Source: Clostridiaceae bacterium
GTDB taxonomy: Bacteria > Bacillota > Clostridia > Acetivibrionales > Acetivibrionaceae
Direction: 5' to 3'
Length of the DNA: 64,000 nt
Assembly: GCA_012519925.1 (NCBI GenBank)
Contig: JAAYPF010000019.1
Span: forward strand, 33,410-97,409
The notes below the pieces were generated by a model that worked only from the letters and a program-made list of their open reading frames with translations, was not told where the DNA came from and made no database searches. The position numbers and the translations under genes were made by a program. Numbering within the stretch: the stretch's first letter is position 1; the number at the start of each line of letters is the position of its first letter. Below are positions 1,676-51,529 of the stretch, one piece after another.

Positions 1676-3415
1676 TTAATTAATCTTATTCTCACTCTTA
1701 TATTTCCTCGCATATTCAATCATTTCTTCAGCATGCTTTATTGTAATGTCGGAAATATTCGTGCCACCTATAATTCTTGCCACTTCATGTTTTACCTCAT
1801 TATCATCAAGTTTTCTAACCTTTGTGCTTGTACTACGGCCATTTACAGACTTTTCTATATAATAGTTATTATCAGCCATACAAGCAATTTGTGCTAGATG
1901 AGTAACCGAAATAACCTGATGGTTTTTTGATATATAAGACATTTTTTCGCCCACTTTCTGGGCTGCTTTCCCACTGACTCCTATGTCAATTTCATCAAAT
2001 ATTAGGGTGGAAATTTTGTCTACATTAGCAAGAATGGTTTTTATAGCTAGCATAATACGCGACATTTCTCCTCCAGAAGCTATCTTTGCTAAAGGCTTAA
2101 GGGGTTCACCCGCATTTGTAGAAATTAAAAACTCAACCCTATCCAAACCATTATGATTATATCTTCTATCCCCGCTTTCATTAGTGCTCTCGTCAAACTC
2201 AATATTAACTCTAAGCCTTGCATTTTTCATTTCGAGATCCTGTAATTCGTACCCAATCTTTTCCTCTAGTAGCTTTGCAGCTATTTTCCGTTTTGAGCTT
2301 ATATTTTTAGCAATCAAAAAGAGTTCTCCCTCTGCCTTTTCCAAGTCATCTCTTAGCTTATTAACAAGCTCTTCATTATTTAGTATTTCATTAAGCTCAA
2401 GTTGTGCATTCTCCATAAATTCTTTAATTTTTTCTATGGAATCTCCATACTTCTTTTTGAGCTTAAAAATCAAATCCAACCTTTCTTCAATCTGCTCTAG
2501 TAATTCGGGATCATATTCGACTTCATCCCTTTTATTACGAACTTCACAAACAATATCTTCCAACTCAAAAGATATGCCCTCAAGCCTTTTTGTCAATTCA
2601 AAATAACTTTCATCTAACTTTGATATATCTCCCATAATAGAAACAGCTTCTCCTATATTATCCGAAGCCGATTTCTCAGTTTTGCTTCCTACACCAATCA
2701 ATTCGTATATTTTAGACAAAGTAGCAATGATTTTCTCTGAATTTTGAAGAATTGTTCTCTGCTTATTTAACTCCTCTTCCTCATTAGCTTTAAGCTTTGC
2801 CTTTTTAATTTCGTCAATCTGAAATTTCAAAAAATCTATTTTCCGCTCTCTATCATTTTTATCTCCCGAAAGAAGTTTTAATCTATTTTTTATTTCACGA
2901 TATTTATTCAAGCTATCACTATATTTATTCTTTAACTCATGTATACTTTCGTCACCAAAGGAATCGAGCAAATCTATATGACTGTCTGTACGTAGTAATG
3001 ACTGGTTATCATGCTGTCCATGGATGTCTATAAGCAGCTCTCCTATATGTTTAAGCATTGACACTGTTGCAATTTTACCATTAATCCTGCAACTGTTTTT
3101 ACCACTTAGGGTAAATTCCCGGGAAATAATCAGTGTTCCGTCTTCTTCAGGCTCAATTCCGTATTCATCAAAGAAGCTTTTTAGCCTATCATCATCAATT
3201 ATAAATACAGCTTCAACTACAGCCTTATCCTTACCTGCTCTGATTAAATCCTTAGAAAGCCTTTCACCTAATATAGCTTTTATTGAATCAATAATTATAG
3301 ATTTACCTGCACCCGTTTCGCCAGTTAATACATTCAAACCCTCTCCAAGCTCAATTTCAATCTTATCAATAATAGCTATATTTTGTATTTGTAATTGCTG
3401 AAGCACGAATATCAC
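1676..3415 (-). CDS. recN: DNA repair protein RecN
   Basis: 579 aa; Walker A GETGAGKSIIIDSI, signature LASGGEMSRIMLAIK, Walker B TLIFDEIDIGVSG. Confidence 0.97.
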   Translation of the reverse strand: MIFVLQQLQIQNIAIIDKIEIELGEGLNVLTGETGAGKSIIIDSIKAILGERLSKDLIRAGKDKAVVEAVFIIDDDRLKSFFDEYGIEPEEDGTLIISREFTLSGKNSCRINGKIATVSMLKHIGELLIDIHGQHDNQSLLRTDSHIDLLDSFGDESIHELKNKYSDSLNKYREIKNRLKLLSGDKNDRERKIDFLKFQIDEIKKAKLKANEEEELNKQRTILQNSEKIIATLSKIYELIGVGSKTEKSASDNIGEAVSIMGDISKLDESYFELTKRLEGISFELEDIVCEVRNKRDEVEYDPELLEQIEERLDLIFKLKKKYGDSIEKIKEFMENAQLELNEILNNEELVNKLRDDLEKAEGELFLIAKNISSKRKIAAKLLEEKIGYELQDLEMKNARLRVNIEFDESTNESGDRRYNHNGLDRVEFLISTNAGEPLKPLAKIASGGEMSRIMLAIKTILANVDKISTLIFDEIDIGVSGKAAQKVGEKMSYISKNHQVISVTHLAQIACMADNNYYIEKSVNGRSTSTKVRKLDDNEVKHEVARIIGGTNISDITIKHAEEMIEYARKYKSENKIN

Positions 3416-9200: not shown

Positions 9201-10514
9201 CTAGTTAAAAATATCTTTAATAGTCGTGTTTTGCTTTTCTATAGTATCCTTAACTTGCTGTGCAGCATCTTCTTTAATACTTTTAACTTCAATCTCTAAG
9301 GCCTTTCTTAGTTTCTTTATTTCCGAATTCCTGTCCTTAGGATCAAGGTTGTTATTGTCTACAACTGAACTGATTTTTTGCCTAGTCTTCTTTATCTCAA
9401 TATCAATCTTGTTTTTAGCTTGACTTCGTATTAAGGATAAATTCTGTCTCGCCTTTTCCAATTCTAAGTTTACTAGTATAAGCTCAGAACCTACATTCGA
9501 TTCTTTATTTATATAAAACTTTTCAGAATAATCAAACTCCGCTTCTTTAGTCTTTACTTCATTAGTTTGATATTCCTCTACAACCTTTTTGGCATCAAAT
9601 TCTTTATCTAAGCCTAACACATTTGGATTATAATAGAATGCCCATGGGTTATATATATTGTAATATGGCTGCCCCCACATATTAAATCCCCCATATAATG
9701 GTGGTGCCTCAAATTTCGACGCATCATATTTCGGTGGTTCCCATGGTTTATACTCAATGTGTGGTGTTGGAGTCACCTCAGGTGTTGGTGTTGCTTGATG
9801 GACCGGGGTATAATATTGGGACGTTACCCATGGTTTATATTCAATATGTGGTGTTGCTTCAGATATTGGTGTATTTTGCTTTGGCATTTCCCACGGTTTA
9901 TATTCAATAGGTGATGTTACTTCAGGTTTTTGTGTATCGTACTGTGGCATTTCCCATGGATTATGTTCAATAGGTGGTGTTGCTTCAGGCATTGGTGCAT
10001 TTTGCTTTGGTATTTCCCATGGTTTATATTCACCGGGTGGTATTACTTCAGGTTTTTGTGTATCGTAATTTGGTGCTTCCCATGGGTTATGTTCAATATG
10101 CGGTGTTACTTCAGGTTTTTGTATATCGTATTTTGGCATTCCCCATGGATTATATTGATGAATTTCGTCAGGCTTCGAGTTTTTGTATTCGGGCTGTTCC
10201 CAAGGATTTTGTCCACTATATGAAGATGTCACCTCTGGCCATGGTGTCTCGTTTGCATGGTACTCCCACGGATTGTGTTGGTTATACGACGTTGTTGCAT
10301 CTGTATTTGGCATATTGTTTTGGGGTTGTTCCCAAGAATTGTATCCACTATAAGGTGATACTGCCTCTTGTTTTCCATAGTCATGTTCCCATTGTTTTGC
10401 TTCATCTTTGCTAAATGATGATAATTCTCCATTAGTACCCTTGGCAATAACATTGCTTCCAATAATATTTAAGATAATCGCAGTTGAAATTGTTATAATG
10501 CCAAGTTTTTTCAC
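9201..10514 (-). CDS. Secreted Pro/Trp-rich ~21-aa repeat protein with C-terminal coiled coil
   Basis: ORF track 9201..10565; GTG at 10514 has a strong RBS (GGGGGGATTAGTGAAAAAA...) and gives a signal peptide (KKLGIITISTAIILNIIGSNVIA). About 11 repeats of type IEHNPWEMPQYDTQKPEVTPP, then charged helices. Confidence 0.8.
   Translation of the reverse strand: MKKLGIITISTAIILNIIGSNVIAKGTNGELSSFSKDEAKQWEHDYGKQEAVSPYSGYNSWEQPQNNMPNTDATTSYNQHNPWEYHANETPWPEVTSSYSGQNPWEQPEYKNSKPDEIHQYNPWGMPKYDIQKPEVTPHIEHNPWEAPNYDTQKPEVIPPGEYKPWEIPKQNAPMPEATPPIEHNPWEMPQYDTQKPEVTSPIEYKPWEMPKQNTPISEATPHIEYKPWVTSQYYTPVHQATPTPEVTPTPHIEYKPWEPPKYDASKFEAPPLYGGFNMWGQPYYNIYNPWAFYYNPNVLGLDKEFDAKKVVEEYQTNEVKTKEAEFDYSEKFYINKESNVGSELILVNLELEKARQNLSLIRSQAKNKIDIEIKKTRQKISSVVDNNNLDPKDRNSEIKKLRKALEIEVKSIKEDAAQQVKDTIEKQNTTIKDIFN
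9640..10400 (-). repeat. ~63-bp in-frame tandem coding repeats (NPWE/KPWE units)
   Basis: Repeated text such as ggcatttcccatggtttatattcaatatgtggtgttacttcaggtttttgtgtatcgta on + strand; translates to IE(H/Y)(N/K)PWE.P.....PE.TP. Confidence 0.9.
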
Positions 10515-49263: not shown

Positions 49264-50331
49264 ATGTCCTACCAAATTGCAATTGAAAAAACAAAAAGTC
49301 CAAAGCAAAAACCTGACCAAAACAATTTAGGTTTCGGTATATATTTTACAGATCACATGTTTACAATGGATTACACGGAAGGTAAAGGCTGGCACGATCC
49401 AAGAATCACACCTTATGCTCCGTTAAGTTTCGATCCTTCATGTATGGTATTTCACTACGGTCAGGCTATCTTTGAAGGTTTAAAGGCCTATAAGGGTGTA
49501 AACGGCGAAATTCTTCTTTTCAGACCAAAAAAGAATATGGAAAGAGTAAATATTTCAAATGATAGATTATGCATACCACCAATTGACGTTGACTTTGCTG
49601 TTGAAGCAGTAAAAGCTTTAGTAGAAGTTGAAAAAGATTGGATACCAGAAGCAGAAGGGACATCCCTTTATATTCGTCCGTTCATAATAGCAACTGATGC
49701 TAATCTTGGAGTTAGACCTTCCCATACATACAAATTTATGATAATACTCTCCCCTGTTGGAGCTTATTATAAAGAAGGTATTAATCCTGTAAAAATCTAT
49801 GTAGAAAGCAATTATGTCCGTGCTGTAAAAGGCGGTATAGGTTTTGCTAAGACACCGGGCAACTATGCTTCAAGCTTAAAGGCTCAAATGGAAGCAAAGG
49901 AAAAGGGCTATACACAAGTTTTGTGGCTTGATGGATTAGAGAAAAAATACGTTGAAGAAGTAGGTACAATGAATGTATTCTTTAAAATAAATGGAGAAAT
50001 TATTACTCCATCCCTAGAAGGTAGTATTTTAGCCGGAATAACGAGAACATCTACTATAGAACTACTAAATTCAATGGGTGTTAAAGTCACTGAACGAAGA
50101 ATTTCCATTGCAGAGATTTTCGATGCCCATGCTAATGGTACGCTTGAAGAAGCTTTTGGAACGGGCACAGCTGCTGTTATATCTCCAATCGGAGAGCTTA
50201 ATTGGGATGGAAAAGTGATTGAAATAAATAACGGTAAGATTGGTGAAATTTCTTCAAAAGTCTACGATACTATTACCGGAATTCAAAGCGGCAAACTAGA
50301 AGATAAGTTTGGTTGGACTGTTAAGATATAA
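49264..50331 (+). CDS. ilvE: Branched-chain amino acid aminotransferase
   Basis: ORF 49126..50331, likely ATG at 49264 (GAAAGGGG RBS); FHYGQAIFEGLKAYKG, YIRPFIIATDANLGVRPS, FAKTPGNYASSLKAQMEAKEKGYTQVLWLDG. Confidence 0.96.
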   Translation: MSYQIAIEKTKSPKQKPDQNNLGFGIYFTDHMFTMDYTEGKGWHDPRITPYAPLSFDPSCMVFHYGQAIFEGLKAYKGVNGEILLFRPKKNMERVNISNDRLCIPPIDVDFAVEAVKALVEVEKDWIPEAEGTSLYIRPFIIATDANLGVRPSHTYKFMIILSPVGAYYKEGINPVKIYVESNYVRAVKGGIGFAKTPGNYASSLKAQMEAKEKGYTQVLWLDGLEKKYVEEVGTMNVFFKINGEIITPSLEGSILAGITRTSTIELLNSMGVKVTERRISIAEIFDAHANGTLEEAFGTGTAAVISPIGELNWDGKVIEINNGKIGEISSKVYDTITGIQSGKLEDKFGWTVKI

Positions 50332-50365: not shown

Positions 50366-50402
50366 AAAAGGCGGAGGGGAATTTTAGTCCCCTTCGCTTT
50401 TT
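50366..50402 (+). terminator. Rho-independent terminator of ilvE
   Basis: AAAAAGGCGGAGGGGA attttag TCCCCTTCGCTTTTT. Confidence 0.9.
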
Positions 50403-50548
50403 GTTACGCTCCTTAGAATGAAATGAAAGGAGCAAAAACGAAGGGGCTCGATGCCCCGTAGTTTTTATTACGCTCCTTGGAACGAAATGAAAGGAGTAAA
50501 AACAAAGGGACCCAATACCCCATAGTTTTTATTACGCTCCTTTCGAAC
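50403..50548. repeat. 64-bp tandem repeat, ~2.3 copies, each with two potential hairpins
   Basis: Units begin at 50403, 50467 and 50531 (exactly 64 bp apart): (G/A)TTACGCTCCTT.GAA.GAAATGAAAGGAG.AAAAAC.AAGGG...CCCC.TAGTTTTT. Confidence 0.9.
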
Positions 50549-50656: not shown

Positions 50657-51529
50657 ATGAAAAAAAAGCTCAATATAAATAAAACTATACTTTCTATAAT
50701 TATTTTAAATTTTATACACTTAAGCATACTTATTGGAGTTTTGGCATATACCGCTTTTTCAAATAAGTTTAATAAACCTGCTCCAACCTTCAATATAACT
50801 TACCTGTTTTTTTACTTAATGGTATTTACCATCTTATTTATAAACAGCTATATTACAATAAAAAATGCTATTGAGCTAACCGATTCAGTTTCTCAACACG
50901 AAGCCTTTAAAAGCTCCTTAAGTCAATTGGAAAGCCTAAACAAGACCCTTAGAGCTCAAAGACATGACTTCATGAATCATCTACAAGTTGTTTACAGCTT
51001 AATAGAAATGAAGGAATACAAAGATGCTGAAGAATACATTGAACAGGTTTATAATGACATACAAAAGGTTAGCAGGGTTTTAAAAACCACTAATGCAGCA
51101 ATTAATGCTCTTCTTCAAGCAAAAATACTAGACTGTGAAAAAAGAAACATCAAAATAGAATTGAAGGTCACATCACAGTTAGACGGCTTTCAAGTACCAT
51201 CTTGGAAAATGTGCCGTATACTTGGTAATATTATTGACAACTCAATATATGCCCTTGAAGAACTTGACGCCAACAGATTGTTGAAAATTAACATTTTTGA
51301 GGATTTACGAACCTTTGATTTTATAATCACAAACAACGGTCCTAATATCCCTCTAAACATAATAGATAAAATATTTGAAGCAGGTTTTTCTACAAAAGGA
51401 AGTAAGGGCGAAGGAATGGGGCTTTTCACCTCAAAAAGCATCATTGAAAGATATAACGGTAAAATATCCGTATCTAGCGAAGATTATACAACCTTTGAGA
51501 TTAAATTCCCAAAAAATAAGGATGTTTAA
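50657..51529 (+). CDS. GHKL (Spo0B-type/citrate-agr-like) sensor histidine kinase
   Basis: 290 aa; two TM helices; LRAQRHDFMNHLQVVYSLIEM; NIIDNSIYALEE; GMGLFTSKSIIERYNG. Confidence 0.9.
   Translation: MKKKLNINKTILSIIILNFIHLSILIGVLAYTAFSNKFNKPAPTFNITYLFFYLMVFTILFINSYITIKNAIELTDSVSQHEAFKSSLSQLESLNKTLRAQRHDFMNHLQVVYSLIEMKEYKDAEEYIEQVYNDIQKVSRVLKTTNAAINALLQAKILDCEKRNIKIELKVTSQLDGFQVPSWKMCRILGNIIDNSIYALEELDANRLLKINIFEDLRTFDFIITNNGPNIPLNIIDKIFEAGFSTKGSKGEGMGLFTSKSIIERYNGKISVSSEDYTTFEIKFPKNKDV

Follow-up and report, generated by a model that had tools for sequence, protein, structure and literature searches.

The 64,000-nucleotide stretch of DNA analyzed here (the window), from contig JAAYPF010000019.1 of a Clostridiaceae bacterium, contains a 64-bp tandem array between ilvE and a sensor histidine kinase gene. 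The units of this array are probably copies of a mobile element, a non-coding sequence of ~64 nucleotides (nt) with two hairpins that targets intrinsic terminators, stacks behind earlier copies and may be moved in trans by a Y1 transposase of the IS200 type. The terminator hairpin of ilvE lies directly upstream of the array. It was overlooked in a preliminary description made from the sequence, and its position is the key to interpreting the array. Genomes are denoted below by G numbers, G000 being the window's own assembly, and L numbers denote individual loci that were read.

The element is dispersed genome-wide in G000 and is also present in its relatives, as the preliminary description anticipated when it proposed a repeated extragenic element and called for a genome-wide search. 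A search with the array as the query gives at least 40 matches in the window's own assembly, and a covariance model gives at least 146 in the 3.9-Mb genome, a lower bound in that 150 candidates were scored. Instead of a single locus with no structural conservation, which the same description set against its proposal, there are many loci with covarying hairpins. Of the 14 genomes examined in this taxonomic family, 9 carry the element, with at least 47 copies in G002 (a complete assembly), 84 in G005, 88 in G004, 88 in G013 (an incomplete assembly, 87%), 43 in G006 (99% complete) and 64 in G010. G001 and G007 have few copies, and G003, G008, G009, G011 and G012 have at most one weak match each. 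Outside the taxonomic family there are single weak matches only and the element is rare, and viral contigs do not match an exact motif. Copies in relatives are lineage-specific versions. Those in G013 are near-identical at unrelated loci, among the loci read, and are therefore probably young. In G005, which belongs to another genus, loci L103 (~2839-3157) and L104 (~2528-2913) carry longer tandem arrays of the same family, with at least five units in steps of 63-64 bp.

The position of the element relative to terminators was scored in G000 for 124 non-redundant arrays (144 units) using a strict criterion of a hairpin followed by a T-run. Such a hairpin, oriented like the element, lies just on its 5′ side in 85 of the 124 arrays, compared with 6 for the downstream flank, 7 for sequence 200 nt upstream and 7 for shuffled sequence (Fisher p = 7e-28). 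The stem ends 0-4 nt before the element starts in 75 of these 85 arrays. Several of the remaining arrays show hairpins whose loops are larger or whose stems contain mismatches, and in some no hairpin is visible. The same arrangement holds for G013, where 40 of 44 copies lie behind a terminator versus 3 of 44 in the control. At the glutamate dehydrogenase locus (L026, around 173-344), two copies flank one bidirectional terminator and point apart, so that the strand carrying the hairpin and T-run must be what is recognized and sets the orientation. In G013, the flanks show TTTTTATT where the element begins on the left and CTTTTATT at its right end. TTTTATT is found at both junctions, where a target duplication and a site plus element end are indistinguishable. 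Insertion is strand-specific, 3′ of the TTTTATT junction and in a fixed orientation, with the exact junction base ambiguous.

Orthologous terminators without the element are found in the sister species G001 and G002 at 6-7 loci, namely gdhA, a spoVS-like gene, HPr, rpsR, an RNase J gene, glyA and transketolase. These gene names were assigned by eye from translations, and not all of the loci allow comparison with both sister species. For example, the end of the spoVS-like gene reads ...GGTCATTTTTTTATGAATATTATG in G001 versus ...GGTCATTTTTTT, the element and ...AATTATG in G000. Since the orthologous terminators are empty, the element can be taken to move. These observations also bear on whether the element is instead a non-mobile host cis-element, such as a back-up terminator or an mRNA 3′-end structure, that selection keeps in place. 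The terminator-like second hairpin (hairpin 2), the conserved structure and the location of most copies at gene ends would suit such a role, which is nonetheless very unlikely and already contradicted: sister-species sites are empty, near-identical G013 copies occupy unrelated loci, orientation tracks the terminator of each strand even at one shared hairpin, and the element sits downstream of a complete terminator, so that it would seldom be transcribed from the upstream gene.

The array in the window and its neighbors comprise the following features:

49264-50331, forward strand: ilvE, encoding a branched-chain aminotransferase (NCBIfam TIGR01123, E = 5e-122; PRK13357, E = 6e-148; Pfam Aminotran_4), the terminator of which is the putative landing site.
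50366-50402, forward strand: intrinsic terminator of ilvE with a 15-bp stem and T-run (fold -22.9 kcal/mol, z = -5.12), the proposed original target.
50406-50469, forward strand: element unit 1, 64 nt, ACGC...TTTTTATT (repeat search, TRF).
50408-50433, forward strand: hairpin 1 of unit 1, GCTCCTT/AAGGAGC (folding; arms complementary across lineages).
50434-50466, forward strand: hairpin 2 of unit 1, AAAAAC..GGGGC-TCGAT-GCCCC..GTTTTT, terminator-like and the proposed new target (folding, pair counts).
50470-50533, forward strand: element unit 2, stacked behind hairpin 2 of unit 1 (repeat search, TRF; array mate rank 9).
50534-50548, forward strand: third copy, 3′-truncated, comprising the first 15 nt of the element (partial-unit scan of the array flanks).
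50657-51529, forward strand: SpoOB-type sensor histidine kinase, the downstream neighbor, outside the element (Pfam SPOB_a, E = 8e-21; HATPase_c).

Pfam and NCBIfam domain matches place the array between ilvE and the sensor kinase gene, as previously described. The exact 64-bp spacing of the copies also holds in the repeat search and TRF, while the start of the first unit moves from 50403 to 50406, with unit boundaries set by the deduced insertion point after TTTTxTT. TRF calls the array at 50398-50542 with a period of 64 and 2.3 copies, and the repeat search finds 84% identity over 64 nt plus a 17-nt third partial copy. The number of chance matches expected in the window for a 29-nt motif is 0.00. 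Folding reproduces the two hairpins reported for each unit, with z = -4.98 for unit 1 and z = -4.54 for the 138-nt array, and no shuffled sequence folds equally well. Each unit can form both hairpins, unit 1 on either strand, and the second hairpin is weaker in unit 2 than in unit 1. A scan of the window interval against Rfam gives matches at chance level only.

Both hairpins are conserved as structures. In hairpin 2, 92.5% of cells are paired, and there are 18 double changes versus 1-3 when the partner is slid. These pairs were counted on the stated structure; RNAalifold applied to a MAFFT alignment missed most pairs, as the register of hairpin 1 differs from variant to variant. The arms of hairpin 1 vary by lineage and stay complementary (GCTCCTT/AAGGAGC, GCCTCTT/AAGAGGC and AAGTCTT/AAGACTT). 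In the alignment, the hairpin 2 loop TCGAT and parts of the hairpin 1 core, GAAnGAAnTGAAAG, are near-invariant, as would be expected of sites recognized by a protein. A subterminal hairpin is present at each end of the element, and there is no terminal inverted repeat.

The variation in hairpin 1 also bears on the earlier suggestion of a serial terminator or anti-Shine-Dalgarno array. Folding pairs CTCCTT with AAGGAG in the window variant, as anti-Shine-Dalgarno or riboswitch-like control of the downstream kinase would require, but this pairing motif is not conserved in other variants, and the AAGGAG strand is absent from the commonest ones (CTTTC..GAAAG, CTCTT..AAGAG and GTCTT..AAGAC). The element also lies >120 nt upstream of the kinase start, has no Rfam match above chance and occurs 3′ of unrelated genes, behind terminators and not in 5′ leaders. 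Both the location of the copies and the missing conservation contradict such control, which is extremely improbable. Serial termination is plausible as a by-product of the copies: A- and T-runs flank hairpin 2, which comes after a terminator-like hairpin.

Arrays appear to have grown mostly by separate insertions in which new copies landed behind older ones, since units of one array are seldom nearest relatives. The array mate is the nearest relative for 5 of the 35 units in 17 multi-unit arrays. Unit 1 of the window is 94% identical to a copy at another locus and 81% identical to its array mate (rank 37), and for unit 2 the array mate ranks 9 among its relatives. Another unit follows in 18 of 142 cases (~13%). 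At its 3′ end the element has hairpin 2 and then TTTTTATT, which together make a terminator-like site, and the indirect evidence suggests that it recreates its own target through hairpin 2 and the T-run. The array, though not the family, could instead derive from a single copy by replication slippage or unequal exchange. The 5 of 35 units with an array mate as best match exceed chance, and some G005 arrays with 63/64-bp steps have similar units, but the nearest relatives of the window array and most others lie elsewhere in the genome. A slippage origin is accordingly unlikely and, for the window array, disfavored. A partial 5′ unit follows seven arrays, including that of the window, versus one in shuffled sequence, and a partial 3′ unit precedes none. 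The simplest reason is 3′ truncation after insertion, with the 5′ side kept by selection on the terminator; one-ended copying is a further possibility.

In the proposed mechanism, the element would move as single-stranded hairpin DNA, and an IS200-type Y1 (HUH) transposase acting in trans would join it behind the hairpin-TTTTATT site, mistaking the terminator for the element's own right end. Hairpin 2 and its T-run would then offer a further landing site, and later copies would stack head to tail with one-unit spacing. A Y1 enzyme acting in trans is the leading candidate mobilizer, as a best guess, because IS200-type elements use the same class of site. Of the IS200-type copies read, 19 of 21 lie behind intrinsic terminators, with a junction that is mostly TTAT or TTATT. 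The copies scored are from G001 (L112, L122, L129, L136 and L296-L300), G015 (L113, L123, L130, L137 and L301-L303), G016, G004 and G008, plus a decayed copy in G000 (L294) that also sits behind a terminator, the further loci being L114, L115, L110 and L121. The G001 copy encodes an IS200/IS605 transposase (NCBIfam). No report of IS200 elements targeting terminators was found in the literature searched, which does not prove its absence elsewhere. Matches to the Y1 transposase gene are present in G000, G001, G004, G005 and G010. The 3′ part of the IS200 elements at L112, L113 and L114 holds GTGGCTTGAACGAAGTGAAAGCC or close variants and shares the core GAACGAAGTGAAAG with hairpin 1 of the element.

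Several observations weigh against the involvement of Y1, and mobility itself is deduced from the comparison of genomes. G002, with at least 47 copies, and the incomplete G013, with at least 88, have no Y1 match. The ends of the IS200 elements in G000, G001, G004, G008, G015 and G016 are unlike those of the 64-nt element, and among the loci read there is no longer relative that has these ends and encodes a transposase. The 3′-truncated copies are unexpected from precise two-ended Y1 transposition, although later deletion could account for them. The places read in G013 contain no split copies, and odd partial copies in G000 and 5′-only places in G013 are either truncated or diverged; none carries an insert. 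When the element profile was applied to the Y1 and reverse transcriptase loci read, only two partial copies appeared, one near a Y1 gene (L131) and another at L342. RAYT was considered as the mobilizer and rejected, as it has no linkage to the element and is absent from G000 and G002; the RAYT loci read contain no copy by the element profile.

Other enzymes could account for the same preference for terminators. In an unlikely alternative, the terminator-targeted element is spread by a reverse transcriptase, with a nicked terminator end or group IIC-intron-like machinery priming the copying of element RNA, which would give intact 5′ junctions and variable 3′ ends. Group IIC introns insert after intrinsic terminators (PMC4424553), 3′-cut copies with an intact terminator junction exist, and reverse transcriptase genes are present in G000, G002, G004, G005 and G013. 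However, RVT_1 has no match in G006 (99% complete, at least 43 copies) or G010 (at least 64 copies), the element has no Rfam match to a group II intron domain, the group II introns read here are not clearly behind terminators, and one-sided truncation also arises from deletion when selection preserves the upstream terminator. It is similarly improbable that the element depends on a transposase or recombinase of some other class, with convergence alone accounting for the landing site shared with IS200. Neither Y1 nor reverse transcriptase genes track copy number across genomes, but there is no positive pointer to another class, the enzyme search having covered the Y1 and RVT_1 families. A low but real probability attaches to a gene-less family that lands on the terminator shape (hairpin and T-run), regenerates its target with its own terminator hairpin and uses an enzyme class other than the Y1 or reverse transcriptase known for other palindromic repeats or terminator-seeking introns. 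L293, a small contig, has two group II intron domain V matches (41-115 and 2799-2883) separated by a reverse transcriptase reading frame with an internal stop, and L292 has an RT-5 RNA (Rfam RF03026, 7765-7866) near a reverse transcriptase gene.

The element, preferably read as Y1-mobilized, resembles several known systems. Like IS200/IS605 elements and PATEs, it has hairpins near both ends without inverted repeats at the tips, a single orientation and insertion 3′ of a short T/A-rich motif. The PATEs reported to date have their ends in common with a resident insertion sequence (PMC7290912), whereas the ends of this element match no complete IS200/IS605 found. Like REP and REPIN sequences, it is short, palindromic, intergenic, high in copy number and non-autonomous, but it lacks a conserved GTAG/CGTC tag, the GTAG after hairpin 2 varying to GAAG, GGAG and GAG. 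RAYT-like genes occur in G001, G005, G006, G007 and G010, and only two isolated element copies lie near the many Y1 and RAYT genes read. The REP/RAYT papers PMC8266576 and PMC3733652 do not mention terminators. Like group IIC introns, the element inserts directly behind intrinsic terminators and in a single orientation (PMC4424553, PMC7923331), but it is 64 nt long, lacks the ribozyme domains V/VI and boundary motifs (no Rfam group II match) and has no intron-encoded protein. It is a small non-autonomous mobile repeat like MITEs, but its ends, ATTACGC and GTTTTTATT, are not complementary, and two internal hairpins take the place of terminal inverted repeats. In its workings the element is akin to a PATE or REP, while its landing site is that of a group IIC intron. 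It lacks a defining feature of each and is filed among small palindromic mobile repeats.

To our knowledge, terminator-seeking insertion is known only for group IIC introns; here the 64-nt element behaves in this way too, as does, apparently, a group of IS200 transposons. Landing behind terminators would be a harmless 'safe harbor', which would explain the persistence of so many copies. Each copy adds one or two hairpins behind the terminator of a gene, so that gene ends gain extra terminator-like hairpins, and back-up termination by them is possible. The question raised is whether an HUH transposase recognizes the terminator hairpin because it is similar to the element's right end. Enzymes of this kind could then serve to insert DNA at the ends of genes. 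Elsewhere in the window, at 9827-10156, a 63-bp tandem repeat with 5.2 copies in 21-codon steps is probably a coding repeat.
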